A stretch of DNA of 39,075 bases, taken from contig JAAYTD010000034.1 of the NCBI GenBank assembly GCA_012518115.1, forward strand, positions 1-39,075. The letters run 5' to 3'. This document shows, piece after piece, positions 2,324 to 36,854 of the stretch. The stretch's first letter is position 1, and every line of letters starts with the position of its first letter. The DNA comes from Ignavibacteria bacterium. Lineage in GTDB: Bacteria > Bacteroidota > Ignavibacteria > Kapaibacteriales > UBA2268. The notes under the pieces were generated by a model, which saw nothing but the letters and a program-made list of their open reading frames with translations, made no database searches and had not been told where the DNA came from. The translations under genes were made by a program, and so were the position numbers.

Positions 2324-3001
2324 ATGAAAAAAACAACAAACGATGATAACAGCTCTCAACAAATCAACTACAATAGATTGTTTGAGGGAATTCGCGGCTT
2401 TAAAGCCAACGAGCATATTCCTAAAAAGGAATTTTTTGCCCAATTAGGCAAACATCAAAATCCGCACACGCTATATATTGGTTGCTCCGATTCACGCGTG
2501 GTTCCAAACTTAGTTACTGGCACCATTCCGGGCGAACTATTTGTTGTGCGTAACATTGGCAATTTTGTCCCCTTTTACGACAAAAACTCTGATACCTTTG
2601 TTGCTACCTCAGCGGTAATTGAGTATGCAGTTAAGCAACTACAAGTGGACAACATAGTTGTTTGCGGACACTCAAACTGTGGTGGCTGCGAGGCACTTTA
2701 TAAAAGCGCCAAGGAAATGAAAGATCTACCACATACAAAAAAGTGGCTTGAACTTGCAGCACCCGTAAAGAAAATTGTAGAAGAACAAATAGCAAAAAAT
2801 GTAATTTCTATTGAAGATCGTAGCACATATACCGAACAAATGAACGTGGTTGTGCAAATTAGCCACTTAATGAAATATCCATATATTCGTAAGTTACTAA
2901 AACAAGGCGAGTTAACTATTATGGGCTGGTGGTACAATATCGAAGAAGGCGAAATTTATAATTACGATGATGAACTTAAAAGATTTATACGAGTGGAATA
3001 G
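2324..3001 (+). CDS. Beta-class carbonic anhydrase
   Basis: A 225-residue cytoplasmic zinc enzyme that interconverts CO2 and bicarbonate. The family signature is complete: CSDSR with zinc ligand Cys54 and the Asp56/Arg58 pair, then CGHSNCGGC with His116 and Cys119. There is no signal peptide. It stands alone between lepA (divergent) and a convergent DUF454 gene, so no operon partner hints at its use; supplying bicarbonate to carboxylases is the usual role. Base composition is distinctly richer in GC than its neighbours (codons such as CGC, GTG and GGC are frequent), which suggests acquisition by transfer or a different expression class. Its terminator overlaps the end of the neighbouring gene. 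Confidence 0.95.
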   Translation: MKKTTNDDNSSQQINYNRLFEGIRGFKANEHIPKKEFFAQLGKHQNPHTLYIGCSDSRVVPNLVTGTIPGELFVVRNIGNFVPFYDKNSDTFVATSAVIEYAVKQLQVDNIVVCGHSNCGGCEALYKSAKEMKDLPHTKKWLELAAPVKKIVEEQIAKNVISIEDRSTYTEQMNVVVQISHLMKYPYIRKLLKQGELTIMGWWYNIEEGEIYNYDDELKRFIRVE

Positions 3002-9493: not shown

Positions 9494-9544
9494 ATATTTG
9501 GAAGACGTAAGACAGAAACATTGAACAATGAACAATGATTTTTT

Positions 9545-9584
9545 AACCGCAAAGAACACAAAGATTTACGCAAAGGACGCAAAG
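9545..9584. repeat. cgcaaag-type dispersed repeat, copy 1
   Basis: It starts AACCGCAAAGAACACAAAGA and continues with further cgcaaag units. The same unit occurs as an inverted pair at 33785-33840, 24 kb away, next to unrelated genes, so it is a dispersed intergenic family and not part of a gene. Confidence 0.7.
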
Positions 9585-9628
9585 AAGACGACAGAAATAA
9601 GTTTTATTTTCCGCTCTTCGCTGAAAGC

Positions 9629-9674
9629 AAATTCCCCTTTGGCACGAAGGGGTGGCAGGCGAAGCCTGACGGGG
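9629..9674. repeat. GC-rich intergenic hairpin repeat, copy 2
   Basis: It has the same CCCCTTTGGCACGAAGGGG hairpin as copy 1. The second hairpin is intact here: GGCAGGC, GAA loop, GCCTGAC, then GGGG. Confidence 0.8.
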
Positions 9675-9687
9675 TAGTTAATAAAAA

Positions 9688-9724
9688 AAACTGCTTACTG
9701 AAGAAATCAATAAGCAGTTTTTTT
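9688..9724. terminator. Two-way terminator between the GT2/TPR and LRR genes
   Basis: A 10-bp inverted repeat, AAACTGCTTA (9688-9697) and TAAGCAGTTT (9711-9720), is preceded by a run of A and followed by T. It can therefore stop transcripts from either side, chiefly the LRR gene ending at 9759. Confidence 0.85.
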
Positions 9725-9758
9725 ATGTCAAGTAAAAATCAAGTAATTTGTTTTTATA

Positions 9759-12209
9759 CTAATTTTTTATAACTTTTCCTATCTTTTCTCTTGTTTTTAC
9801 TATGTACACTCCTGCCGGCAGATTTGAAATATCTATTTCTGTTTTTTCTGCATTAAGTGTTTGCTTATATAAAACTTCACCTGCTAAACTTAATATTTTT
9901 ATTTCATCGCCAAAGGTATTGCTTCCAATAAAAAATTTACCTGTAGTAGGATTAGGATAAATATCGAACCATTCTATTTCGCAAATACTTCCATTCTTTT
10001 CTTTAAGTATAGCATTGCAATAGTTGTACGGAGTAAATATTCTTTTTTGTTGTCTAGTTAAATACAGAATAAAACCTTCAGCCTGATTACAACAGTATAA
10101 CTCCCATAAATTTAACAGCGGTCTAATATCTAAGCTTTTAAGCATGTTATCGTTACAATATAAAGTATCTAATCTTATATTTTTACTTACATCTAATTCA
10201 GTTATGTCATTATAAGAACACTTGAAGTAAGTTAGTCTTGTATTATTACTTATATCTAAGTTACTTAGGTAATTGGTGGAACAATCAAAAGATTTTAGTG
10301 CAACGTTTTTACTTACATCTAAATTGCTTAGGTAATTGTCAGAACAATTTAGTGTTATTAAATTTATATTATTACTTAAATCTATGTCGCTTAATTGATC
10401 CCAATAACAATACAATTCTTCTAATTTTATATTCTTGCTTAAATCCAAGTTACCTAGTGGATTATAAGTACAAATTAAAGATATTAATTCAATGTTTTTA
10501 CTTACATCTAAGCTAGTGAGATCATTATACCAACAATGTAATTTTTCTAAGTTAATGTTATTACTTACATCTAAGTTACCTAGTGGATTATAAGCGGTCT
10601 TTAAATATGTTAGTTCTATATTATTACTTATATTTAAATTAGTTAGGTGATTGGTGGAACAATCTAGTTCTTTTAGTTTGACGTTTCCACTCAAATCTAA
10701 GTTGCTTAGGTAATTATCAGAACAATTTACTACGATTAAGTTTACATTATTACTTAAATCTAAGTTACTTAATTCATTCCAATAACAATATAGTTCTTCT
10801 AATTTTATGTTCTTGCTTATATCTAACTTACCTAATGGATTATAAGTACAAATTAAAGATATTAGTTCTGTGTTTTTACTTACATCTAAGCTATATATCT
10901 GATTAACCCAACAATGTAATTTTTCTAAGTTAATGTTATTACTTACATCTAAGCTAGTGAGACCATTACGACAACAATTTAATATCTTCAAATTTGGCAT
11001 ATATCTAATTAACTCATCTATGCTAATAAGACCAGATTCCCTGCAATCTAAAACCTCTATTTTTGCTAATGCTTCTAAATTTGTTTTAGTGCCAGTTATT
11101 CCACCGTCTGCATTTATAACGACTCCGGGCAAGGTGTACGCTGCAGAAAACTTTATCCATTTTTTTAAGCTTGGTTCTGTTATTAATGAAATTAGAGGAT
11201 GTTCTAATATAGCATCACAATAATTTTCTTCAGTAAATTTGTCTTTTTGTTCATTGGTTAAAGACAGAATAAAGCCTTCTGCTTGATTACAACAGTTTAG
11301 TTGCACTAAATTTAGTATCGAGGTAATATCTAAGCTATCAAGCATGTTATCGTTACAATATAAAAAAATTAAATTTATATTACTTGTAACATCTAAGCTA
11401 GTTAGTTGATTATAAGAACAATTAAACTCTTTTAGTCCTATGTTTTTGCTTACATCTAAATTACTTAATAGGTTTTCGGAACAATCTAGCATACCTAATT
11501 CTATATTCTTAACTACATCTAAGTTAGTTAGTTTGTTTTTAGAGCAATATAAGTCTGTCAAATTTATATTACTTGTAACATCTAAGTTAATCAATAGATT
11601 ATCAGAACAATTTAATACTCTTAAGTTTATGTTTTTGCTTACATCTAAATTACTTAATAAATTTTCAGAATAATCTAATACTTTTAATTTTATATTACTT
11701 GTAAGATCTAAGTTGCTTAATTGATTTGTAGAACAAATTAAGTCTATTAAGTTTATATTTTGACTTAAATCTAAGTTAGTTATATGATTTCCAGCACATT
11801 CTAAATTTGTTAGTTCTATGTTTTTGCTTACATCTAAATTACTTAATTGATTATTAGAACAATGCAATTCTTCTAAGTTTATGTTTTTACTTATATCTAA
11901 TTCAATCAAAGAATTACGGTTACATATTAACGTCTTCAAGTTTGGCATATGTTGAATTAATTCATCTATGCTAACAATCTTGAATTTACTACAATTTAGA
12001 TGCTCTATTTTTGCTAACGCTTCTAAGTTTGTTGTAGTATTATCTATTCCGCCATCTTCATTTATAACAACTCCAGATAATTTATCTGTATTAGCTTTTA
12101 TCCATTCTTTTAATTGTGGATTTGTTATTAATTCATCAGAAAATGCAGAATACGAAATTAAAATAAATAATGCCAAAGGCATCAAGAAACAATTTTTTAG
12201 GGTTTTCAT
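9759..12209 (-). CDS. Exported leucine-rich-repeat protein with T9SS sorting domain
   Basis: An 816-residue secreted protein. A signal peptide covers about residues 1-24. Then come many 21-residue leucine-rich repeats of the form LxxLxCSxNxLxxLDVSxNI, and a C-terminal type A T9SS sorting domain (WFDIYPNPTTGKF at about 725, ending GVYIVKTREKIGKVIKN), so it is probably exported and anchored at the cell surface. The LRR part consists of two homologous units: about 27-335 and 337-720. Each opens with LKxWIKxx and GVVIN(E/A)DGGI, continues with TNLEALAKIE and IDELI, and closes with CCNQAEGFIL and NYC(D/N)AIL. Surface LRR proteins often bind hosts or matrix; this is inference. Confidence 0.9.
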   Translation of the reverse strand: MKTLKNCFLMPLALFILISYSAFSDELITNPQLKEWIKANTDKLSGVVINEDGGIDNTTTNLEALAKIEHLNCSKFKIVSIDELIQHMPNLKTLICNRNSLIELDISKNINLEELHCSNNQLSNLDVSKNIELTNLECAGNHITNLDLSQNINLIDLICSTNQLSNLDLTSNIKLKVLDYSENLLSNLDVSKNINLRVLNCSDNLLINLDVTSNINLTDLYCSKNKLTNLDVVKNIELGMLDCSENLLSNLDVSKNIGLKEFNCSYNQLTSLDVTSNINLIFLYCNDNMLDSLDITSILNLVQLNCCNQAEGFILSLTNEQKDKFTEENYCDAILEHPLISLITEPSLKKWIKFSAAYTLPGVVINADGGITGTKTNLEALAKIEVLDCRESGLISIDELIRYMPNLKILNCCRNGLTSLDVSNNINLEKLHCWVNQIYSLDVSKNTELISLICTYNPLGKLDISKNIKLEELYCYWNELSNLDLSNNVNLIVVNCSDNYLSNLDLSGNVKLKELDCSTNHLTNLNISNNIELTYLKTAYNPLGNLDVSNNINLEKLHCWYNDLTSLDVSKNIELISLICTYNPLGNLDLSKNIKLEELYCYWDQLSDIDLSNNINLITLNCSDNYLSNLDVSKNVALKSFDCSTNYLSNLDISNNTRLTYFKCSYNDITELDVSKNIRLDTLYCNDNMLKSLDIRPLLNLWELYCCNQAEGFILYLTRQQKRIFTPYNYCNAILKEKNGSICEIEWFDIYPNPTTGKFFIGSNTFGDEIKILSLAGEVLYKQTLNAEKTEIDISNLPAGVYIVKTREKIGKVIKN

Positions 12210-26451: not shown

Positions 26452-26590
26452 ATTATATTGTTTCAGACAATAGTAGCGAAGTAGAAACGAGCTAATATAA
26501 TAGACCTAGACCTAATTCTTTATGTACTTTTATAGCACAGCTGACTATTTCGTATGATAAATTTGTTACCTCTTTCTTTGTCATATTCTA

Positions 26591-26639
26591 TTTTTTGAAC
26601 CATTAAGTTCTTAACTATTCTTAACTTCTTAATGGTTTG
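26591..26639. repeat. ATTAAG-type dispersed hairpin repeat, copy 1
   Basis: It opens TTTTTTGAACCATTAAG and ends CTTAATGGTTTG, so AACCATTAAG pairs with CTTAATGGTT. Related copies are at 26675-26745 and 29034-29104. The hairpin flanked by T or A runs could also act as a two-way terminator. Confidence 0.8.
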
Positions 26640-26674
26640 TTTAATCATTTAACTGTCATCCTTATATAATATTA

Positions 26675-26745
26675 TTTTTTGAACCATTAAGGCATTAAGA
26701 ACCATTAAGTTCTCAACTATCCTTAACTTCTTAATGGCTTAATTT
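26675..26745. repeat. ATTAAG-type dispersed hairpin repeat, copy 2
   Basis: A longer form than copy 1, with an extra unit GGCATTAAGAACCATTAAG. It ends CTTAATGGCTTAA. Confidence 0.8.
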
Positions 26746-26754
26746 TTATTCCGA

Positions 26755-27143
26755 TTAACGATACATTGCCAACTCCAAACTATCCATATATTCTCCAAGC
26801 GACATATTAAACTTCTGATAATCAGCCTTCTCAAACTCCCCTGCCATACATGGCACGGCGACATTTACGGTTTTTTAAGCTGATTAAAGAACGTTATCAT
26901 AATTGGGACTTTTATTATTGTCGATATTCCGCGAATTGTCATATTTCCGGCTTCCTCAAGTTTTAAAATTTCCTCTTTAGAAGAAATGTCTATTTTTCTG
27001 TTATCGACTAGAATTTCCACATTATCATAAAAACCGTAAATCATGCTTACAGCTTTACAAATTTTATCCCACCCAACTGGATACGTCAGATTAAAAGTTG
27101 ACGCCAGCCAACCATTTTCTTCTCTTACTCCTAATAAAAGCAT
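26755..27143 (-). pseudogene. Small gene of unknown function, split by a frameshift in an A-run
   Basis: The first 92 codons (27143 to 26865) end ITFFNQLKKP and stop. A second open stretch in another frame (26874 to 26755) continues with TVNVAVPCMAGEFEKADYQ and ends SLELAMYR. The frames would join if the six-A run at the junction had one more A, giving about 130 residues with consistent character and codon use. The gene is therefore probably broken, or the run is a sequencing error or a slippage site. I do not recognise the family. Leu-Ala-Ser here is CTG GCG TCA, unlike the core genes. Confidence 0.6.
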
Positions 27144-27181
27144 CTTTTATATATTAAAAAAATTAAAAGTTAAACAGTGAA

Positions 27182-28198
27182 TTATTCAATATAATTCCAT
27201 TTATATTCATTCAAGTAACTTACCTTTTTAGTTTTGATGCTTACATGTACTTTTTGCAACGCAGCCAGTCGCATCCCATTGAAAAGATTGGAACTTACTT
27301 CTTGAACTGTTTTCTCAAAATCGGCATTAAACAGCTCGTTCGGAACATCGGTTACCTCTTGCCAATCGCTTGCATCTGCATCCCAGCGAACTGTAGGCAT
27401 ATCTTCGGAATAGCGGTAAAATGTAAATCCGGTCTGATTGTCGTCGAGTATTACGTTACCCATAAAATTTTCCTCAATGGACAAAAGTTCATTACCAGTA
27501 TTTAAGTCATATATATCCAACATCCGCACATTACTTGTACCATTGCTTAAGACCAAGGCGTTACCCACTACACACTCAAATGCCGTGGCATCTTGAATTG
27601 TGAATGATTTCACATCTTCTCGTTTTGCTTCTACCCGAATTATAAAAGCGTCATAACCATCTTCCCAGCTACCGCTAACGCGACGCGTTTCATCTTCATA
27701 GCAGAGTGTTTCGTTTTCCTGCAAAAGACGCAATGCCATAGTTCCTTCACTTTCCGTTTCTTGTACCTCTGCCGCTTCAAACTCATACTCCATATCTTCC
27801 CACTCATTGGTTTCGTAATTTTTCGCGTAAAATGGAATGATCAGTACTTCTTCGCCCTCTCTTACTTCAATACGCCACGGCTTATCTGTCCAATTTGAGT
27901 TTGAACCTATCACAGGTGGTTCGCCATCGAATATAACCTGTATCTCTCCGTTTGTAAATGTTCCCGAGAAAGAAACCGCATCGCCATCTACGCCGTACTC
28001 GTTTGATTTGACTGTTCCTGTTACTTTTCCATCTGCTGCGACACTCATCTTTACACGAGTTTCATACTTTAGCCCACCTGAATAGAACTCTTTTTCTACA
28101 GATTTTTTTGCATTACTCTTTTTGCCTGAATTACATGCTATAAGCAACGTTATCGGCATAAATGCCACAATTAAAAACACCATTAATTTAGTCTTCAT
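27182..28198 (-). CDS. Lipoprotein of unknown function
   Basis: A 338-residue protein with a lipoprotein signal (Lys start, hydrophobic core, LLIAC lipobox, Cys22), so it is likely an outer- or inner-membrane lipoprotein. The mature part begins with a Lys/Ser linker, then about 30-150 reads as beta-rich (GTVKSNEYGVDGDAVSFSG, then DGEPPVIGSNSNWTDKPWRI), and the rest is rich in acidic residues and aromatics. No family recognised. It starts 3 bases after the stop of the next lipoprotein gene (28202-29014), so the two are probably co-translated. Higher GC than the core genes. Confidence 0.75.
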   Translation of the reverse strand: MKTKLMVFLIVAFMPITLLIACNSGKKSNAKKSVEKEFYSGGLKYETRVKMSVAADGKVTGTVKSNEYGVDGDAVSFSGTFTNGEIQVIFDGEPPVIGSNSNWTDKPWRIEVREGEEVLIIPFYAKNYETNEWEDMEYEFEAAEVQETESEGTMALRLLQENETLCYEDETRRVSGSWEDGYDAFIIRVEAKREDVKSFTIQDATAFECVVGNALVLSNGTSNVRMLDIYDLNTGNELLSIEENFMGNVILDDNQTGFTFYRYSEDMPTVRWDADASDWQEVTDVPNELFNADFEKTVQEVSSNLFNGMRLAALQKVHVSIKTKKVSYLNEYKWNYIE

Positions 28199-28201
28199 AT
28201 T

Positions 28202-29014
28202 TTATCTTTGAGTTTGTTGTTTAAATCTTTCTCGTGCCGCTTCTGTTTTCTCTTTCGAGTAGTGCACATTTAGATTTTCATCAATAATATAGCACGCATG
28301 AGGTTCAAACTCTTCGGTCAATCTGCTTGCATCGTATCCTCCCATAAGTTCTTCAAACCAAACGGTAACCACACCAGGTTTTAAGGCACGCCAACGGTGA
28401 GAGTAATCATTACTTCCGCCGCATTGGTTATCGCGATTTGGGTCGAGGCGTTCGATAAATGTGCCCAAATCCTCTACCAAATCGGCAGGCTCGGCATGTG
28501 TGTAAATTTCTGTAGGCGTGGCAATACCTTTGCTGTAGTTAACGCGAATTTCAAATTGCCGCTTATACCTATCAATCCACTGATACATCAAATCAATCGC
28601 TTGGCTTTCCAACTTCAACGTTTTCTTGTCCTTGCGTTGATTGATAGAATAACTACGGACAATCTCTTTGCCGTTTTTAATAAATTTCACATCGAGATGC
28701 TCCGATAAATCGCGGATATAATCTCGTCGCTCTCTGCGTGGTTTGCTCATCTCAAAAAGAATATTCGCTAACTCATCAAAGTCGCTTTGCGTAATCTCAA
28801 AACTAGTACTATTGTTTTCCTTGTAGCTGCCTTCTTCAAATTCTACGGCATAAGTTCCCGCTATTTTTTTTACTCTTATATTAATACGGTCATCACTACG
28901 CATACCCGAACGGTGGTAATCTACCGATACAAGTTCTTTTTTCTCTGCATTTGTATTTGTGCATCCAAAAAAATAAAAAAGTACTAATGTCATAATAATC
29001 AGTTTTTTCATCAT
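28202..29014 (-). CDS. Lipoprotein of unknown function
   Basis: A 270-residue protein with a lipoprotein signal (FYFFGC, Cys18). The mature part has SVDYHRSGMRSDDRINIRVKK, a long charged segment (SKPRRERRDYIRDL) and a C-terminal part with GVVTVWFEELMGGYDASR. No family recognised. Together with the following lipoprotein gene it forms a two-gene unit. A copy of the ATTAAG hairpin repeat (29034-29104) lies between it and the upstream exported-protein gene, so it may have its own transcription start. Confidence 0.75.
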   Translation of the reverse strand: MMKKLIIMTLVLFYFFGCTNTNAEKKELVSVDYHRSGMRSDDRINIRVKKIAGTYAVEFEEGSYKENNSTSFEITQSDFDELANILFEMSKPRRERRDYIRDLSEHLDVKFIKNGKEIVRSYSINQRKDKKTLKLESQAIDLMYQWIDRYKRQFEIRVNYSKGIATPTEIYTHAEPADLVEDLGTFIERLDPNRDNQCGGSNDYSHRWRALKPGVVTVWFEELMGGYDASRLTEEFEPHACYIIDENLNVHYSKEKTEAARERFKQQTQR

Positions 29015-29033
29015 TAATTCTTTATATTTGTAG

Positions 29034-29104
29034 TTTTTTTTGAACCATTAAGGCATTAAGGGACATTAAGTTCTTAATTAATCTTAACTCCTTAATGGTT
29101 TAAT
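29034..29104. repeat. ATTAAG-type dispersed hairpin repeat, copy 3
   Basis: It starts with eight T, then GAACCATTAAGGCATTAAGG, and closes with CTTAATGGTTTAA. It lies between two genes of the accessory block and is the same family as at 26591 and 26675. Confidence 0.8.
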
Positions 29105-29180
29105 TATTTAATTTTGAACCCAAGTAGTTGAACATCAACTTTGTTTTTGTCAGTTTGTTTGTCCATTGTGTATTATTACC

Positions 29181-29669
29181 TTAATTGTCTGCAAACTGAA
29201 CAAGCGATGCTTTAAATGCAAGATACTCTTTCTTATACTTATTATAAGCCTTCATGTTTTTATATTTTATACCAATTATAGTCGTAGTTTTTTCTATTCT
29301 ATTGCGCGTTTCCTGATAGCTACGTGCATAACTGCCATCTTTTGCCGAAATGGTATAATGAATTACTACTGTATTCTTGCCATTAGTATATTCTTCTTTG
29401 CCTTTGGTTTCATTAGGTTGCACCTCAATGTCGTCTGCACTACTCGACCATTGCGGAGAATAAACATAAAATTCAACGTCTCCATCGGGCGATGTAAAAA
29501 AAACGCTATCGAAGCTACCATCTCCGGCAGTTTCGGAAACAAGAGAGCCTTTGGCTGTAAACGTGGCAGGGTATTTTATTTCAAAAAAACTGCCTCTAAA
29601 TGTTTTTGTCTGTGCTGACAAACCGATAGTTGCTATTGCAAATATCGAAAGTAAAATTGTTCTTTTCAT
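29181..29669 (-). CDS. Exported protein of unknown function
   Basis: A 162-residue protein starting MKRTILLSIFAIATIGLSAQ, a standard signal peptide with a cut after Ala-Gln region. The mature part includes FRGSFFEIKYPATFTAKGS, FDSVFFTSPDGDVEFYVYSP and a Lys/Tyr-rich end (MKAYNKYKKEYLAFKAS). The FEIKYPATF opening recalls PsbP-like or DUF1795-type periplasmic folds, but I cannot confirm this. I chose this start over a longer form (29726) because the signal peptide begins here and the longer form would overlap the upstream gene. Part of the accessory block. Confidence 0.7.
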   Translation of the reverse strand: MKRTILLSIFAIATIGLSAQTKTFRGSFFEIKYPATFTAKGSLVSETAGDGSFDSVFFTSPDGDVEFYVYSPQWSSSADDIEVQPNETKGKEEYTNGKNTVVIHYTISAKDGSYARSYQETRNRIEKTTTIIGIKYKNMKAYNKYKKEYLAFKASLVQFADN

Positions 29670-29709
29670 TTTATACGTTTTTATAAAGTTATAAATTGAA
29701 CTTAATACC

Positions 29710-30630
29710 TCAACCCATTCCGCCAACTATATATGATGTTGTTCTTAATAGTTTGCCTGTTTCTCCTTCATGTAGTATTTCAAAAATTTCAATCGTTTCC
29801 AAACTCGGATAATACGTATAGGAACGTCCGTTTTTAAGTTCGATAAAAACAGTATGATTGGCAAATCCGTCATCAGGCGTATAACGATATGTTGCTTTTT
29901 TAATATCGCTCAATTTAGTTGGTTTTGTGTAACCTTTTTCATCTTCGCCGGAAATTAAATCGCACAAAAATTGTTCTTTATTTCCTTCAAAAAATTGCAT
30001 ACATTGCTCTGATACATAACTTGGCAATATGTACTGTAAGCAACGGTCGGCATCGGTAGCATTGAGTGCAGCGACAAAGCCTTTAACTAGCTGCTGATGA
30101 GTGCTGTTTTGAGTAGGATACTCATTCAGACGCACAAATTGCTCGTTTTGCCACTTATAAATATGTGTCTCTAATCCGTTCACAATCAAAAAAACAGAAG
30201 TTCCATATCGAGGAAGATGAACTTGAACCCAATTGTCACAGCAGTTTATAGCAATGCTGTTTTCCACCCCATTATCCAATTCCTCTATTCCAAACTTTGC
30301 GGTAGGTACTATTTCTCCGTTGATGTAGAGATAGAAAGAATATGCACCAAATTGAGTGGTTGCAATTAATTTGTCGCCATTTTTCAAGTCCCAATGGCAC
30401 ATTTCCCATATGCACTGATTTTCAATTTCTAAACGAAGGTAGCCGTTTTTATAATCACACACCTTAATGTGTTTTTCCAAATCAGCAGACTTATCCGACG
30501 ATAAAAACCGAAAAGCATCACCAGGTAGCAAATGAAACAGTGTTTTCACATTCACTTCTTGTTGTGCATTCACATTTGAAGTTGCCATAACAATCAACAC
30601 AAGCATAATAATTCTGACTGTATTTCTCAT
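29710..30630 (-). CDS. Exported protein of unknown function
   Basis: A 306-residue protein from MRNTVRIIMLVLIVMATSNV, with a signal peptide and NAQQ cut region. A start 10 codons earlier is possible but would precede the signal. The mature part is beta-rich with many aromatics (LFHLLPGDAFRFLSSDKS, then CIWEMCHWDLKNGDK), a Cys-Cys pair (NCCDNWVQVHLPRYG) and an end EILHEGETGKLLRTTSYIVG. No family recognised. It starts 37 bases after the 5'-nucleotidase-type gene and is probably in its operon. Confidence 0.7.
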   Translation of the reverse strand: MRNTVRIIMLVLIVMATSNVNAQQEVNVKTLFHLLPGDAFRFLSSDKSADLEKHIKVCDYKNGYLRLEIENQCIWEMCHWDLKNGDKLIATTQFGAYSFYLYINGEIVPTAKFGIEELDNGVENSIAINCCDNWVQVHLPRYGTSVFLIVNGLETHIYKWQNEQFVRLNEYPTQNSTHQQLVKGFVAALNATDADRCLQYILPSYVSEQCMQFFEGNKEQFLCDLISGEDEKGYTKPTKLSDIKKATYRYTPDDGFANHTVFIELKNGRSYTYYPSLETIEIFEILHEGETGKLLRTTSYIVGGMG

Positions 30631-30667
30631 ATTTTTGAAGTTTATAAAGTTGTAAATCAATTTTCAA

Positions 30668-32137
30668 TTATTTATTGTTAACAAATACTCGTTTTACGTT
30701 CTGATAATTCTTTACAGTTTTCTCTTCCATAAGCCAATTAATACAACCTTCTGCGGTTGTAATAGATAGGGTTTTCCCCGGATCTTTTCTCTGAAAATCG
30801 GCAGTAGCAATAACATAGGAATTTGTAGCTACACTATATGTTTTATCCATATCAAACGGCGTTCCGTCTTCGTTCAGAAATTCTAAATTTATTAACTTAG
30901 AATCATCTTCTGAAACGGTGTATTTCAAATGAAGTCCTGATGGGTACATTATCTTATAATAACCTTGACCACCAAACATATTTGTGATAAACGCCTTGAT
31001 TTCGTGTCCTGTGAGATTCAGCGTTACCACTTGATTGCCAAATGGATCGATAGTAAAAATCGTTTTGCGACTGATATCCCCTGCGGCTAAATGATTGATG
31101 CGTACACCGCCTTTGTTTATAAATGCTATTTGGGTTTTAGCCGTTGCTTTCAGCGCATCTGCCATCCAGTAGCCGAGCTCATCTTTTGAACGAAATTCAA
31201 AAGGAGCATTAGCAATTACTTCTTTCATTACAGGATTATCATTGTACTTATCAACCATAGAACGAGTAGCAGCTTGCTCATTACCTTTTCTGTCTACAGT
31301 AAGCAATTTCATTGAACGACTCACTTGTCCATCAGGTTTTACTATAAGGTTAATAAGCGTAGCATATTTCAACTTACTATCGGCTTGGGTAATCATTATG
31401 CCGTTGTGGATTTGATCTTTGTCCACTTTCGTGTGTGAGTGTCCACCGATAATTAGATCCACTGTACCTTCTGGCAGACTATTTGCCAATTTCACATCGT
31501 TTTCAAATCCTAAATGATTAAGAAAAATCAATAAATCGGCACTGTCTTTCAAGTAAAGATATTTTGGTGCAGTTTTATACGGGTCGGTAAAACTGAAGCC
31601 TGTTAGGTGGTCAGGGTGGCAGGCTGGCTGATTATTTGGGTTTAGATCAAGTAGTGAAACAAAACCCACTTTTAAGCCATTTTTCATAGTAACAATTTTA
31701 TAAGGCTTAACCTTAAAATTCATGTCTTTAGGCAGATTCATATTTGCACATAAAAAATCAAATTTAGCTATTTGAGTGTGTTTCTCAAAGTTCTCGGCTC
31801 CGTGATCAAATTCGTGGTTACCTACTGCCGAAAGGTCGAAACCTACAGCATTCATCAGCTCGATAGTTGGACGTCCCTTCTCTTGATACTGATCGTTAAT
31901 GGGATTTCCCGTTTGGTTGTCTCCACCCGATACCAACAGCATATCAGGATAAATAGCGCGCAGGCTATCCACCATAAATGCAAATCGAGGAAAATTGTCG
32001 ATATTGGCGTGAATATCGTTTACTGCCAATATAACGATTTCTCTGTCTGTAACTGTTTTTTGAGTTACGTTCTTACTTGTTCCACAGCTTGTTAGTGCAA
32101 ATAGCACAAATAAAGCTAATAAAACTCTATTTTTCAT
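30668..32137 (-). CDS. 5'-nucleotidase/UshA-type metallophosphoesterase lipoprotein
   Basis: A 489-residue lipoprotein (lipobox ALTSC, Cys18) with a calcineurin-like metallophosphoesterase domain: NDIHAN (Asp41, His43), SGGDNQTGNP (Asp73), VGNHEFDHG (Asn107, His108) and GGHSHTKVD. A 5'-nucleotidase C-terminal substrate domain follows (INKGGVRINHLAAGDISRK, then TIDPFGNQVVTLNLTGHEI). Family members hydrolyse nucleotides, nucleotide sugars or cyclic nucleotides outside the cytoplasm. It may scavenge extracellular nucleotides, or act on another phosphoester supplied by the unknown exported proteins next to it. Part of the higher-GC minus-strand block. Confidence 0.92.
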   Translation of the reverse strand: MKNRVLLALFVLFALTSCGTSKNVTQKTVTDREIVILAVNDIHANIDNFPRFAFMVDSLRAIYPDMLLVSGGDNQTGNPINDQYQEKGRPTIELMNAVGFDLSAVGNHEFDHGAENFEKHTQIAKFDFLCANMNLPKDMNFKVKPYKIVTMKNGLKVGFVSLLDLNPNNQPACHPDHLTGFSFTDPYKTAPKYLYLKDSADLLIFLNHLGFENDVKLANSLPEGTVDLIIGGHSHTKVDKDQIHNGIMITQADSKLKYATLINLIVKPDGQVSRSMKLLTVDRKGNEQAATRSMVDKYNDNPVMKEVIANAPFEFRSKDELGYWMADALKATAKTQIAFINKGGVRINHLAAGDISRKTIFTIDPFGNQVVTLNLTGHEIKAFITNMFGGQGYYKIMYPSGLHLKYTVSEDDSKLINLEFLNEDGTPFDMDKTYSVATNSYVIATADFQRKDPGKTLSITTAEGCINWLMEEKTVKNYQNVKRVFVNNK

Positions 32138-32196
32138 ATTTATTAATTATATATTATTAATTATTATTTATCTAAACAATTTTTAATTTTCCTTAT

Positions 32197-32210
32197 TGGG
32201 CTAAAGCCCA
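32197..32210. repeat. Short GGGCT/AGCCC hairpin, likely intergenic repeat
   Basis: TGGGCTAAAGCCCA is a self-complementary hairpin followed by T on the plus strand. That is the wrong side for ending the minus-strand genes here, so it is more likely a dispersed repeat or processing hairpin. Confidence 0.5.
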
Positions 32211-32310
32211 TTTTTGTTGTTGTTTTGTTATTTTATTTATTCAACCAATAAACAAAAATAGAACAAAATTAAGATAGGATTGATTGTGCAAAATCATATT
32301 TTCCTTTTTC

Positions 32311-32505
32311 TTATTCTTTGATTATTAAGTGACTTCCGTCTGTGAGTGCTCCATCGTGTGCCACGCTGTTGCCGTAAGCATCTTCCGCTTCGGGCAAAGG
32401 CGACGGTACTTTTTCCTTTTTTTGAGTATAATATGCACGCATAGCATCAGCAACGGTAGCGCCTTGAAAAATCATTAGTTCTATTCTATTCACTGTTACT
32501 TTCAT
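32311..32505 (-). CDS. Small ThiS/MoaD-like (beta-grasp) protein
   Basis: A 64-residue protein. It starts MKVTVNRIELMIFQGATVADAM and ends GALTDGSHLIIKE, the pattern of a minimal ubiquitin-like beta-grasp: first hairpin, helix after GATVAD, last strand after L-x-DG. ThiS/MoaD sulfur carriers end in Gly-Gly; this one does not, so it cannot be a standard sulfur carrier unless processed. A Lys/Pro-rich loop (KKEKVPSPLPEAED) replaces the middle. It lies between the TPM gene and the 5'-nucleotidase gene. The fold is inferred from pattern only. Confidence 0.6.
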   Translation of the reverse strand: MKVTVNRIELMIFQGATVADAMRAYYTQKKEKVPSPLPEAEDAYGNSVAHDGALTDGSHLIIKE

Positions 32506-32677
32506 TATTTCATTGTATTGTTTTAAAATTGAGAAAACGAAAAGCCTCTACGAGCTCCCGTTTTTCTAAAATTTACTGATATAGTCTTCTGTCATTTCCC
32601 ACAAATCGCATAAAGCACTGATAAATAAACAGGCATCCAGCATTCTAATCTCTAATTCCTAATTTCAGATTACAAGA

Positions 32678-33760
32678 TTAAAATTTCGTACTGGCTCCGC
32701 CACCGCCACTGCTTCCACCACCCCAAGAACCACCTGAACTACTATCACTACTACTGCTATTACTATAAGAACTGCCATCACCGCCACGTGATTTAGGTTT
32801 AGGTGGCTCGTACTTGTAAGGCACCAACACTTTATGTCCGTAATTACACGCTTTACAAATATAATGATAACGCTTCAACCCATCTTGTCCCGGTAGAGCT
32901 TTTTGTTCTACTTGCGGTTTGTATTTCAATACTACCTTGCCTTTTGCACCGCATTTTTTGCAATTAAGACGCGGAATATCATCTTTTTTCACTATTTCTT
33001 TATATATCATATAGAATAGATAGGAAGGTAAAAAGAGAACTGCGATAGCACAACCAATGCCCGAAAGCGACTCATACTTAGCTGCTGCTACAAATGGATC
33101 CTCACTTCGGACTACACGTCTCTTTCTTATATACTCTACAATAAGAATAATAATAAAACCGCCCAAGAACCAAAGCAAACCTAATTTTTCGCTATCATTT
33201 AAGAAGGGCTCCTCTATAAGCAACTCAGAAGTTCCATCAAACACTTTTTCCACTTCTTCCACTCCTGCGATAAGTCCCTCACCATATTTATTTTCTTTTA
33301 GAAAAGGAACCATTTTATTCACCTGAATAAGTTTACTTAAACCATCAGTAAGCGTTGCCTCTGTACCTAGTCCAGTTTCAAAAACTATTTCACGCTCGCC
33401 ATCCGCTGTAAGTAGCAGAATGAGCAAACCGTTATGTGTTTCTTTATCGCCGATGCCCCAAGTATTGAACAGCTCGGTAGCAAACTCTTTCGCTGAGCCG
33501 TAGCGCCCCGTGTCTATTGCCGGAAGTACTACAATGGCTGTTTCCACACCAATTGAATCGCGCAAATAGGCAATACGTTTATCTAAAATAACTATATTGT
33601 CTTTTTTCAAGACATTTTCCGGGTCGCTTACATAGCGAGTATAATCCTGCAATTGCACATTTGGAACGTCTTTTACCGTATATCTGTGCTGTGCTTCTAC
33701 GTCTGCATAAAAAAACAGCAGTGCGAGTATTATTACACTTATTTTTATTGATGTTTTCAT
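32678..33760 (-). CDS. TPM-domain (YgcG-type) membrane protein with zinc ribbon
   Basis: A 360-residue protein: signal peptide (1-24), an extracytoplasmic TPM domain (about 36-180; YVSDPENVLKK, then NGLLILLLTADGEREIVFETG and a TDGLSKLI segment), two membrane helices (about 193-212 and 240-258), a cytoplasmic zinc ribbon (CKKCGAKGK and ICKACNYGH), and a Ser/Gly-rich tail (SGGSWGGGSSGGGGA) ending in Phe. The Gly/Ser tail is typical of YgcG proteins. In Bacillus the TPM protein YdjH is encoded with YdjG (zinc ribbon) and YdjI (SPFH). Here it follows LemA. TPM proteins have been linked to membrane protein quality control; the role here is inferred. Confidence 0.88.
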   Translation of the reverse strand: MKTSIKISVIILALLFFYADVEAQHRYTVKDVPNVQLQDYTRYVSDPENVLKKDNIVILDKRIAYLRDSIGVETAIVVLPAIDTGRYGSAKEFATELFNTWGIGDKETHNGLLILLLTADGEREIVFETGLGTEATLTDGLSKLIQVNKMVPFLKENKYGEGLIAGVEEVEKVFDGTSELLIEEPFLNDSEKLGLLWFLGGFIIILIVEYIRKRRVVRSEDPFVAAAKYESLSGIGCAIAVLFLPSYLFYMIYKEIVKKDDIPRLNCKKCGAKGKVVLKYKPQVEQKALPGQDGLKRYHYICKACNYGHKVLVPYKYEPPKPKSRGGDGSSYSNSSSSDSSSGGSWGGGSSGGGGASTKF

Positions 33761-33784
33761 TATCTTATTTTGTGTTTAACTTTA

Positions 33785-33840
33785 CTCTTTGTGTACTTTG
33801 CGGTTTTTCCAAGTCTATTTAACCGCAAAGAGCGCAAAAG
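33785..33840. repeat. cgcaaag-type dispersed repeat, copies 2 and 3 as an inverted pair
   Basis: CTCTTTGTGTACTTTGCGGTT-like sequence (33785-33805) is the inverse of AACCGCAAAGAGCGCAAAAG (33821-33840), forming a long imperfect hairpin between the TPM and LemA genes. It belongs to the family seen at 9545-9584. Confidence 0.7.
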
Positions 33841-33876
33841 TTCATAACAAAAAATGCTAAGTAACTTATTTGCATA

Positions 33877-34467
33877 TCAAAACTTCACGTCCGGAACGGA
33901 GCTACTATTGCTCTTGCCTTTGAAATATTCTTTTTGTGTAAAACCGAACATAGTAGCGATGATATTTTTAGGAAATCGACGACGATAACTGTTATAATTA
34001 TTTACCGCTTCGTTGAACTTCCTGCGTACAAATGCAATCCTGTTTTCAGTGCCTTCTAATTGTCCTTGCAGCATTATAAAATTTTCGTTAGCTTTCAGGT
34101 CGGGATAGTTTTCAACTAGCATCATCAGACGTGATAAAGCCTGCGACAACTCGCCTTGTACATTGTTTAATTTTTGCAAAGTTTCTGCATTAAGATTTTC
34201 TGCATCAACCGTTAATTGAGTAGCTTTGGTACGTGCTTCTACCACTTGTGCAAATGTTTCCTGCTCGTGCTTGGCGTATCCCTTCACAGTTTCCACCAAA
34301 TTCATTATTAAATCAGCACGGCGTTGGTATTGATTTTCCACTTGCGACCAAGCCATTTGAACGCTTTCGTCCCTTTTTACCAAACCATTGTAAGTCCCCC
34401 AGAAAAAGGAAACTATCAACAATAATGCTATAGCAACGGAAAACAATATTATTAATTTTGTTCTCAT
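33877..34467 (-). CDS. lemA: LemA family protein
   Basis: A 196-residue protein with one N-terminal membrane anchor (about 4-23) and the helical LemA body: YNGLVKRDESVQMAWSQVEN, QYQRRADLIMNLVETVKGYA, the ALSRLMMLVENYPDLKAN core and GTENRIAFVRRKFNEAVNNYN, ending NIIATMFGFTQKEYFKG. It is of normal family length. LemA proteins have an outward-facing helical bundle and are often encoded with TPM proteins; the molecular role is poorly known. It lies between the zinc-ribbon gene and the TPM gene, filling the place that PspA holds in the Bacillus ydj operon. Confidence 0.95.
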   Translation of the reverse strand: MRTKLIILFSVAIALLLIVSFFWGTYNGLVKRDESVQMAWSQVENQYQRRADLIMNLVETVKGYAKHEQETFAQVVEARTKATQLTVDAENLNAETLQKLNNVQGELSQALSRLMMLVENYPDLKANENFIMLQGQLEGTENRIAFVRRKFNEAVNNYNSYRRRFPKNIIATMFGFTQKEYFKGKSNSSSVPDVKF

Positions 34468-34513
34468 TATTTGTAAAATTATATTTTTTAAAGTTATAAA
34501 ATTAAAAATCAGA

Positions 34514-34552
34514 AGCGGGAATTAAAATTATAAAAACATCTCTATTCCCGCT
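34514..34552 (-). other. Intercistronic hairpin between the zinc-ribbon and LemA genes
   Basis: AGCGGGAAT (34514-34522) and ATTCCCGCT (34544-34552) form a perfect 9-bp stem with a 21-base loop. No T-run follows on the minus strand, so it is more likely an RNA processing or stability element than a full terminator. Confidence 0.5.
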
Positions 34553-34562
34553 CTCGTACTAT

Positions 34563-35654
34563 TTACTGTCCGAATATCATTTTTAGTGCCACAATAACTG
34601 CGATAATAGCTATAACAAGCATAGCAATTTTCACCTTGTCTTTCGGATACTGACCAATTACTTGTCCAGTGCGCCCGTTTATCACAAATTGATAAAGTTT
34701 GTTATTGAATTTGAAAGCGCTTATCCAAACTGGAAGCAACAGATGTTTAAACTTCACATTGTTAAACTGCGTATGGCTTGAGGTGATTCTTTGTTCGTCG
34801 CCACCAATATCCTCCCTAATAGTATCTTCTATCACGATGTTCATTTTTTCTTTGGCATCTTCTATCGCCTCGCGAAAATCTTTCTGATAAACTTCTGTAA
34901 TAAATCCCGCCAAAAACTCTTTTTTGTATCCCACGCAATTCATCATATCCCAATTTGTAAGACTATTCATAATACTTTCAGGAAGAGTTTTAGATGCCGG
35001 AACAATAACGTCGTCGAAATCTACATTCACGTTACCGCTAGCACTGTACCAATCGGTAACTGTACGTTTTACCTCTTCACCCTTTTCGTTGCGTGATGTT
35101 TCGGTACGATGCATGCCTCGCTGACCTGTATATTCAGTATGTGTATTAGCATCATAAGTCCAAAATGGCAAATACACGCCTTTGAAACCATCGGTTGATA
35201 CACCATTTTTTTTGAGTTGTGAAGGTAAAAACCATTTTTTCCCTAACCATTTTTTAAAGTTTTCTCTACTGACTTTTTCAGTAATTTTAAATGGTAATAA
35301 ATATTCCGGCTGCCAAAAGCGTTTTACCGATGCTTCTTTCATAATAAGCGGTGTGCCACAAAAAGCACATTTCGCAGCTGATGTATTTTCGGGCAAAGTA
35401 GTTGTAGCTCCGCATTGACGACATTTTATTTCGGGAATTTCCACTACATCTTCGGTATTGTTTTCATCGGCACAATTTTTCCAATACTCAAAATCATTTT
35501 CTTTAATTTTTGCAGGTGTTTTGTCTAATCCGCCGGTGTTCCCGCAGTAAATACATTTCAAATCTTCGTCGGCGGGAGAATACTGCATAATGCCACCGCA
35601 TGCTTTACACTTAGTTTGCAGTGCATCGTTTATAGGTTGTTTTATTTCGTCCAT
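34563..35654 (-). CDS. Double zinc-ribbon membrane protein (YdjG-like)
   Basis: A 363-residue protein with two zinc ribbons at the N-terminus (Cys16/19 with Cys34/37; Cys78/81 with Cys96/99), a central beta-rich domain (about 105-330; YLPFWTYDANTHTEYTGQRG, then GNVNVDFDDVIVPASK and LLLPVWISAFKFN), and a single C-terminal membrane helix (about 343-361). This is the layout of the family represented by Bacillus YdjG, often mis-named as a primosomal or TFIIB-type zinc protein. No helicase motifs are present. It lies between the SPFH gene and LemA. A tail-anchored scaffold is a reasonable guess. Confidence 0.82.
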   Translation of the reverse strand: MDEIKQPINDALQTKCKACGGIMQYSPADEDLKCIYCGNTGGLDKTPAKIKENDFEYWKNCADENNTEDVVEIPEIKCRQCGATTTLPENTSAAKCAFCGTPLIMKEASVKRFWQPEYLLPFKITEKVSRENFKKWLGKKWFLPSQLKKNGVSTDGFKGVYLPFWTYDANTHTEYTGQRGMHRTETSRNEKGEEVKRTVTDWYSASGNVNVDFDDVIVPASKTLPESIMNSLTNWDMMNCVGYKKEFLAGFITEVYQKDFREAIEDAKEKMNIVIEDTIREDIGGDEQRITSSHTQFNNVKFKHLLLPVWISAFKFNNKLYQFVINGRTGQVIGQYPKDKVKIAMLVIAIIAVIVALKMIFGQ

Positions 35655-35714
35655 ATTTGATTAGTTAACAAATTAAAAATTTTAAGGTTCATTATTTATT
35701 GTACTTGTCAAATT

Positions 35715-36854
35715 TTATAACGGTGGCGGTACTGCTCCGAATAATTTTGCAAGCGCCGGTACGCTGCTAGCGGCTGCCCAAGCCGGCATTCCTTGTGTCC
35801 ATACCAAAGTATCAGGTGTAAGTTGTCCTTGCTGAACCATCTGTTGTAATTGTGCTTCAGGAAACGGACCTTGTTGTACGCCGTTTATTGCTACGTGGTA
35901 CATTGGTTGCGGTGGAATAGGTGGCGGAACAGCTCCTCCTTGTTGCATAGCAGGATTGAATTGTCCAGCTTGCGGATTTGCCATTTGTTGTGCCATCTGT
36001 CCTGCCATTGCAAATCCCATGCCCGCACCCATAGCATCGCCTGCCAGACTTCCTCCTCCTGCAGGATTGTTAGCTGCATCTTTGAGCGAGTCAGCAAATT
36101 GCATTTGAGTGTAAGCTGCCATATTACCGATAACGCCCATACTTGTACGTTTGTCGAGAGCTTCTTCCACTGCTTCAGGTAGTGAAATATTTTCTACTAA
36201 AAAACGGGTAAGTTCGATACCGTATTCGGCAAAATCATCTTTCAGAGCTACGGTAAGTCCGTCAGAAAATTCATTGAGATTAGCGGCAAGATCAAGTGCT
36301 GCAATCTTAGATTCTCCTAAATAATCGGTGAACTTAGTAATAACAAAATTACGCAATTGATCACTAATTCCCTCAGTGGTAAATTCGCCACTTGTTCCCG
36401 CTACATTACGGATAAAAGGTATTGGGTCAGGCTGAATTCGGAAGTTGTAAGAACCGAATGCACGCATACGAATAGGACCAAATTCAGGATCGCGTAGCAT
36501 TATTGGGTTTGCTGTTCCCCAACGTTGATTAAGAAATTGCTTGGTATTCACGAAATAAACATCTACCTTGAAAGGTGAGTTGAAACCGTATTTCCAACCT
36601 TTTATGGTGGTTAGTATAGGCATATTGGCAGTGGTTAGTTCGTAACGTCCCGGCTGGAACACGTCAGCAAACTGCCCTTCATCTACCAATACGGCTATTT
36701 GAGTTTCGCGCACGGTCAGCTGCGCCCCGTTTTTAATTTCCGACTGATAGCGTGGAAAACGCCAAATCATTGTGTCGCTTGTTTCGTCTGTCCATTCAAT
36801 GATATCTATAAATTCATTGAATACTTTTTGTTTGATTTTTTCAAAGAGTGCCAT
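35715..36854 (-). CDS. SPFH-domain protein with C-terminal GYF_2 domain (YdjI-like)
   Basis: A 379-residue protein. Residues about 1-235 match the SPFH/band-7-like family once called virion core proteins (YdjI): NEFIDIIEWTDETSDTMIWR, GQFADVFQPGRYELTTANMP, RAFGSYNFRIQPDP and LVENISLPEAVEEALDKRTS. A Gly/Ala/Gln/Met-rich linker (about 240-315) follows, then a GYF_2 (DUF4339) domain at 318-372 (YHVAINGVQQGPFPEAQL, WTQGMPAWAAAS). GYF_2 domains are thought to bind proline-rich or membrane partners; the linker ends in VPPPIPPQP. It is the first gene of the accessory block; it lacks a signal peptide and is probably a peripheral, oligomeric membrane scaffold. Confidence 0.9.
   Translation of the reverse strand: MALFEKIKQKVFNEFIDIIEWTDETSDTMIWRFPRYQSEIKNGAQLTVRETQIAVLVDEGQFADVFQPGRYELTTANMPILTTIKGWKYGFNSPFKVDVYFVNTKQFLNQRWGTANPIMLRDPEFGPIRMRAFGSYNFRIQPDPIPFIRNVAGTSGEFTTEGISDQLRNFVITKFTDYLGESKIAALDLAANLNEFSDGLTVALKDDFAEYGIELTRFLVENISLPEAVEEALDKRTSMGVIGNMAAYTQMQFADSLKDAANNPAGGGSLAGDAMGAGMGFAMAGQMAQQMANPQAGQFNPAMQQGGAVPPPIPPQPMYHVAINGVQQGPFPEAQLQQMVQQGQLTPDTLVWTQGMPAWAAASSVPALAKLFGAVPPPL

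Follow-up and report, generated by a model that had tools for sequence, protein, structure and literature searches.

A beta-grasp gene beside a nucleotidase-type lipoprotein gene

The window, i.e., the whole 39,075-nt stretch analysed here (contig JAAYTD010000034.1 of an Ignavibacteria bacterium genome), carries on its minus strand a run of genes encoding a small beta-grasp (ubiquitin-fold) protein, an UshA-type 5'-nucleotidase lipoprotein, and several exported proteins. All six genes that a preliminary description of the bare sequence had assigned to one block were found in place on that strand: bg64 (32311-32505), encoding a stand-alone beta-grasp protein of 64 aa; ushA (30668-32137), encoding a lipoprotein of 489 aa with metallophosphoesterase and 5'-nucleotidase_C domains; p306 (29710-30630) and p162 (29181-29669), encoding proteins with signal peptides; and p270 (28202-29014) and p338 (27182-28198), encoding further lipoproteins, so that its inventory of an UshA-type lipoprotein, a beta-grasp peptide, and four exported proteins that match no known family was confirmed. 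The run ends with a seventh gene, p92 (26865-27143), encoding a small protein, and p306, read here from an ATG, would extend to 30660 if an alternative TTG start were used. Signal types were judged by eye from the sequence, which gave the lipoboxes LTSC (ushA), FFGC (p270), and LIAC (p338), as well as signals of the signal-peptidase-I type in p306 and p162. From the 5' side on, the gaps were 172 nt (from the upstream TPM-domain gene to bg64), 173 nt (bg64-ushA), 37 nt (ushA-p306), 40 nt (p306-p162), 166 nt (p162-p270), 3 nt (p270-p338), and 38 nt (p338-p92). The spacing of 3-40 bases "in places" noted earlier is therefore correct for three junctions (37, 40, and 3 nt), but two gaps inside the six-gene stretch exceed 160 nt; a single transcript over the run is possible but not evident, because gaps of 172, 173, and 166 nt precede bg64, ushA, and p270, respectively.

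The ushA product matched both Metallophos (PF00149, E 1.4e-13, 52.2 bits against a Pfam cut-off of 21.5) and 5_nucleotid_C (PF02872, E 4.3e-27, 95.6 bits against 23.6), and its nearest solved structure was 3ivd (E 1.9e-30). Residues D41, H43, D73, N107, H108, H208, H233, and H235 were invariant among 11 aligned sequences, falling in the DxH, GD, GNHE, H, and GHxH motifs that we take to be the conserved two-metal motifs, and the lipobox column held Cys in 10 of the 11. Since the metal-site motifs are invariant in this alignment, the enzyme is probably active. Its score against the UshA equivalog NF007109 (149.8 bits) lay below the curated cut-off of 600, and it likewise fell far under the NCBIfam equivalog cut-offs for NadN, SoxB, and the cyclic-nucleotide phosphodiesterase, so that no substrate can be assigned by family; scavenging is the default reading of its role. 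A regular expression for the GGDG substrate loop matched 0/19 sequences, paralogues included, an uninformative test that was dropped.

For bg64, eight homologous sequences showed divergences of 0.32, 0.32, and 0.63 at codon positions 1, 2, and 3 (28 pairs), and the gene is truly coding, because the homologues diverge mostly at third codon positions. An AlphaFold 2 (AF2) model built from these eight aligned sequences reached a mean predicted local distance difference test score (pLDDT) of 93.7 and a predicted template modelling score (pTM) of 0.76. Foldseek returned nothing at E <= 0.001 for this model (the best match, at 1.1e-3, was a hydrogenase chain), and VIA realignment of the Foldseek top 1000 placed SAMP1 (4hro) first, with Z 9.4 and a root-mean-square deviation (rmsd) of 1.5 over 63 aligned residues, ahead of MoaD (1vjk, Z 8.2), TGS (3hvz, Z 8.0), and ubiquitin (Z near 8), the lower rows being nearly tied and thus indicative of fold, not of function. 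The confident model accordingly predicts a ubiquitin/SAMP1/MoaD/TGS (beta-grasp) fold, upholding the earlier beta-grasp call. This fold might suggest a sulphur carrier or ubiquitin-like modifier of the ThiS/MoaD/SAMP type, conjugated via its C-terminus, and a weak ThiS-like Pfam match in 2/8 members (best E 0.043) points the same way as the SAMP1 and MoaD matches. The C-terminal Gly-Gly, however, was missing in 8/8 sequences, and in 5/8 the domain runs on into a signal sequence and hence leaves no free tail; such a role is highly improbable, and it was rejected for want of the Gly-Gly.

Among 15 loci holding relatives of the enzyme, taken from named records and searched for the block proteins by tblastn, a bg64 homologue lay directly upstream of the ushA relative in seven (L015, L017, and L019-L023), and the window supplies an eighth case; one further locus (L028) starts inside the enzyme gene and offers no upstream DNA. 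This association of bg64 with ushA is the sole conserved one shown within the six-gene run by these comparisons, and neither it nor the in-frame fusion described below had been noticed in the preliminary description. Outside the seven named loci, bg64 is so rare or so divergent as to escape detection: its profile found, among 391 genomes of the class, its own sequence and four marginal matches (E 0.002-0.009, about the number expected by chance at E 0.01 per genome), none of which was accepted as a homologue, one (L032) lying in a zinc-ribbon protein and another (L033) crossing a stop codon. The same profile found its own sequence only among 236 genomes of the phylum, and bg64 had no match among plasmids. 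In two Tannerella loci (L016 and L018, both 9508-9939), a putative lipoprotein of 143 aa precedes the enzyme at the place of bg64; the L016 copy, the only one scanned, showed a weak similarity to EF-Tu domain 2 that did not reach the cut-off (E 2.8e-4).

In five of the seven loci (L017, L019, L020, L022, and L023, the last with a frame that runs off its contig), the beta-grasp domain and the enzyme share a single open frame, whereas in the two split pairs the genes overlap by 4 nt (L015) and 11 nt (L021). The order in the fusions is a beta-grasp domain of 64 residues, a basic linker (e.g., RKKR, KKKK, or EKR, with one Lys only in L022), a hydrophobic core at about residues 75-88 in 5/5, the lipobox Cys, and the enzyme. 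The Cys is residue 88 in all five, with no indel in the preceding segment, and 21, 31, 31, 21, and 51 residues separate it from the first metal motif, VND(M/I)HA. Under the positive-inside rule, basic residues before a hydrophobic core predict a cytosolic N-terminus, and the N-terminus of the fusions is predicted to be cytosolic because such residues precede their core. In a 19-sequence tree, all five fusions formed one branch (support 93/100), and the window enzyme lay outside it with its placement unresolved.

Alternatively, the fusion could be an illusion of annotation, in which bg64 is a separate gene, or a translated leader that has lost its stop codon, and the enzyme starts internally. 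Such a reading would account for the in-frame ATG, GTG, or TTG near the junction in all five fusions and for the two genes kept apart in the window, L015, and L021. It fits poorly with the constant, indel-free spacing of 88 residues in 5/5 and with the codon-position pattern, the excess of divergence at the third position being clear in the beta-grasp part (0.23, 0.25, and 0.56) and weak in the linker (0.51, 0.44, and 0.69). Moreover, the internal ATGs of L019, L022, and L023 lie beyond the basic residues with which a signal peptide should begin and would give a signal peptide lacking them. An annotation illusion is thus a possible but somewhat doubtful account, and fused translation is probable rather than established.

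Exported proteins and the SPFH module of the block

None of the proteins encoded by p338, p270, p162, p306, bg64, and p92 had a match reaching a Pfam or NCBIfam cut-off, and comparison of the block proteins with each other and with the window revealed no meaningful similarity. Homologue searches of the four exported proteins, a check of the kind proposed in the preliminary description, were productive for p162 and returned no relatives for p306, p270, and p338, which are orphans at single-sequence sensitivity. In genome samples that overlap and include the host, p338 was found in its own genome only, both among 60 genomes (the host with 59 relatives) and among 294 of the class; p306 likewise among the same 60 and among 245 of the class; and p270 among 245 of the class. 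The three had no match in viral contigs or plasmids; in the PDB, p270 and p306 had no match and p338 had one at E 0.94; and PHROGs gave only E 0.08-0.09 for p270 and p306 and nothing for the other four proteins scanned.

For p162, the AF2 model (pLDDT 88.9, with the low values mostly in the signal peptide; pTM 0.80) resembled PsbP in Foldseek (6kac_P, E 6e-7), and VIA gave Z of about 10 (2vu4, Z 10.0, 131 aligned residues, with a middling rmsd of 4.1), suggesting a PsbP/Mog1/DcrB-like fold. Homologues of p162 were detected in five other genomes of the class (197 searched including the host; E <= 1.9e-14, 30-45% identity; two weak matches at E 0.006 were left out). None of these five loci contained other block genes as recognisable homologues, and their contexts were scattered (5/5). 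SPFH genes do occur near the p162 homologues at L045 (10090-11481) and L047 (1870-2664), as in the window block, which may hint at a link between PsbP-like and SPFH proteins.

The preliminary description had read the enzyme and the four exported proteins as one uncharacterised export-side system. Extended to the run from bg64 to p92, with the unknown proteins binding or processing the products of the nucleotidase, this reading is consistent with the common strand, the shared foreign composition, and the short gaps between ushA and p92 (37, 40, 3, and 38 nt), save the 166 nt before p270. Nevertheless, no relative of p306, p162, p270, or p338 was found by tblastn in any of the 15 enzyme loci (nor one of the TPM, LemA, zinc-ribbon, or SPFH proteins), and the five clear homologues of p162 sit in other contexts, never beside a phosphoesterase or another of the unknowns. 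Scattered homologues had been named in advance as what would speak against a system; p162 shows such scatter, and for p306, p270, and p338, which have no known relatives, a conserved neighbourhood cannot be shown. A single system of six genes is therefore unlikely; it was rejected as unproven, and a system of the four exported proteins with the enzyme is not supported by these comparisons beyond co-location. The suggestion of defence fared no better, since PADLOC matched 0 families for ten block proteins (E <= 0.1), and this reading was set aside.

Upstream of bg64 on the same strand lies a flanking module consisting of a TPM-domain protein (32678-33760; PF04536, E 4.5e-26), a LemA protein (33877-34467; PF04011, E 1.1e-59), a zinc-ribbon membrane protein (34563-35654), and an SPFH/Band_7_1 protein with a C-terminal GYF_2 domain (35715-36854; PF13421, E 5.4e-91, and PF14237, E 2.9e-21). 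Homologues of the zinc-ribbon protein occur in 26 of 197 genomes including the host (25 others), and in all six fetched loci from other class genomes an SPFH homologue adjoins the zinc-ribbon homologue; these six loci held no LemA, TPM, bg64, ushA, exported-protein, or other block gene. The block is accordingly composite, its parts travelling separately elsewhere.

Foreign composition of the block

The G+C content at third codon positions (GC3) sets the block apart, a feature that the preliminary description had missed. Among the 31 window genes measured, the eleven from p92 to the SPFH gene had GC3 values of 0.29-0.38, and the other 20 had values of 0.14-0.20, bar a carbonic-anhydrase-like gene; the edges of the block are sharp, with values of 0.15 in waaF and 0.29 in p92 on one side and of 0.33 in the SPFH gene and 0.18 in lysS on the other (dacB, waaF, lysS, and the other genes outside the block were named by reading their translations, not by family search). 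In the one same-genus genome examined (locus L090), dacB, waaF, two other genes, and then lysS lie within 4.7 kb and the block is absent; the contig end cuts lysS there, and the rest of the gene is on L089. The orientation of lysS is the same as that of waaF in L090 and opposite to it in the window, and the site has thus also been rearranged. Among ten further genomes of the family searched for lysS, the stretch around lysS was fetched from nine and contained no block gene; the tenth (G002) lacked a full lysS match. The closest relatives of the enzyme (47-58% identity) come from Bacteroidales or unclassified-Bacteroidetes records and one fragment of a Bacillota metagenome-assembled genome, and enzyme matches in the host's relatives (15 of 59 genomes) reached at most 31% identity. 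The block DNA had no match among plasmids. Given its foreign third-codon-position composition and its absence between the corresponding genes of the same-genus genome, the block (26865-36854) was probably acquired.

A mis-assembly or a contaminating piece could also produce a sharp change of composition, and 78-nt repeats stand at the left edge of the block. Yet the block sits in the interior of the contig, with host-like genes on either side (dacB-waaF and lysS), both common to the same-genus genome, so that two false joins would be needed, and the host genome (2.48 Mb, 92 contigs) is 97.18% complete with 0.56% contamination; such an artefact appears quite improbable.

The 78-nt imperfect repeat occurs in three copies, two at the left edge (26568-26645 and 26670-26747) and one within the foreign block (29031-29108), the last lying in the p162-p270 gap and having inverted-repeat arms. 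Between the block and waaF, a short truncated frame (26490-26590, minus strand) resembles the start of a GxxExxY-family protein. Elsewhere in the window, the carbonic-anhydrase-like gene (2324-3001) has a GC3 of 0.358 among neighbours of 0.17-0.19 and is possibly a second acquired gene, judging from composition, and a leucine-rich-repeat protein is encoded at 9759-12209, the C-terminus of which we take to resemble a type IX secretion sorting domain.

Proposed roles and comparison with known systems

Taken together, these results suggest an acquired composite envelope block made up of the SPFH/zinc-ribbon/LemA/TPM module, the bg64-ushA pair, and p306-p162-p270-p338-p92, in which the enzyme would scavenge extracellular phosphoesters with bg64 as its partner on the cytosolic side, a reading to which we give a probability of roughly 0.55. 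The ushA product would be a lipid-anchored two-metal phosphoesterase, most likely releasing phosphate outside the inner membrane from nucleotides or similar phosphoesters, in the service of scavenging; its catalytic residues are observed, whereas its substrate and purpose are what we infer. The bg64 product would be a ubiquitin-fold domain working with the enzyme from the cytosolic side. In relatives, this domain appears as the N-terminal part of a lipoprotein precursor, before the basic linker, the hydrophobic signal stretch, and the Cys of the lipobox. Provided that signal peptidase II cleaves at this Cys, fused and split genes would end up with identical products, namely a beta-grasp piece in the cytosol and a lipoprotein that is exported. 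The beta-grasp piece would most likely be an assembly or targeting domain of the precursor rather than a sulphur carrier. More tentatively, a ubiquitin-fold domain placed ahead of a type II signal peptide might fold and act in the cytosol during export of the nucleotidase and be released afterwards by signal peptidase II, one gene thus supplying a cytosolic ubiquitin-like protein and the surface enzyme in equal numbers, with split genes, as in the window, as an alternative form of the pair. The products of p306, p162, p270, and p338 would be further exported cargo, tied to the enzyme by co-location.

Several observations weigh against the proposed partnership. The enzyme occurs with no bg64 beside it in seven loci (L016, L018, L024-L027, and L029), i.e., two from Tannerella, three from Porphyromonas, and two others, and in the window itself 173 nt separate bg64 from ushA. 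In-frame ATG, GTG, or TTG codons near the junction of all five fusions could allow separate translation of the enzyme, and an internal start in L017 (TTG) or L020 (GTG) would keep the basic residues of the signal peptide. In addition, the fusion may have arisen once, because the five fusions form one branch, and the tree is weakly resolved, with 9/16 inner branches open.

The signal peptides of lipoproteins are usually short, and a conserved folded domain placed before one raises the question of what the cytosolic side of a lipoprotein precursor can do; it also bears on what ubiquitin-like domains do besides conjugation and sulphur transfer. The part of the block worth follow-up is the beta-grasp/nucleotidase pair, including the apparent beta-grasp-headed lipoprotein precursor, and the pair offers an experimental handle on a Bacteroidales nucleotidase subfamily. 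Among open-licence papers searched by title or start of abstract, no fusion of a beta-grasp or ubiquitin-like domain with a nucleotidase or lipoprotein signal was found; a term search of PMC1779556 and PMC1796856 gave no occurrence of nucleotidase, phosphoesterase, or lipoprotein, and "beta-grasp" and "ubiquitin" are absent from the main text of a 5'-nucleotidase survey (PMC10454023).

Compared with known systems, p162 shares its predicted fold with the PsbP/Mog1/DcrB-LpqN proteins at low sequence identity, whereas none of six p162 members reached a Pfam family cut-off or matched Pfam PsbP at E <= 1. The block has the same association of SPFH and zinc-ribbon genes as the gene pairs found elsewhere but adds LemA, TPM, bg64, ushA, and the exported proteins. 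Like the ThiS/MoaD/SAMP carriers, bg64 is predicted to adopt the beta-grasp fold (Z 9.4 to SAMP1 4hro and 8.2 to MoaD 1vjk), but it lacks the C-terminal Gly-Gly, and in five relatives it is continued by a signal sequence. With TGS domains it shares this predicted fold (3hvz, Z 8.0), small size, and the absence of a Gly-Gly tail, although Pfam TGS was not among the matches of the eight members, and TGS domains, according to PMC1779556, occur almost always in RNA-binding multidomain proteins. The enzyme, finally, resembles the UshA/5'-nucleotidase family (E. coli UshA 1ush and nucleotidase 3ivd) in its two domains, invariant two-metal motifs, and predicted export, in keeping with the family plan of signal peptide, metallophosphoesterase, and 5_nucleotid_C domains given in PMC10454023, but it differs in being predicted to be lipid-anchored, in scoring below the equivalog cut-offs, and in having several relatives with an N-terminal beta-grasp domain.

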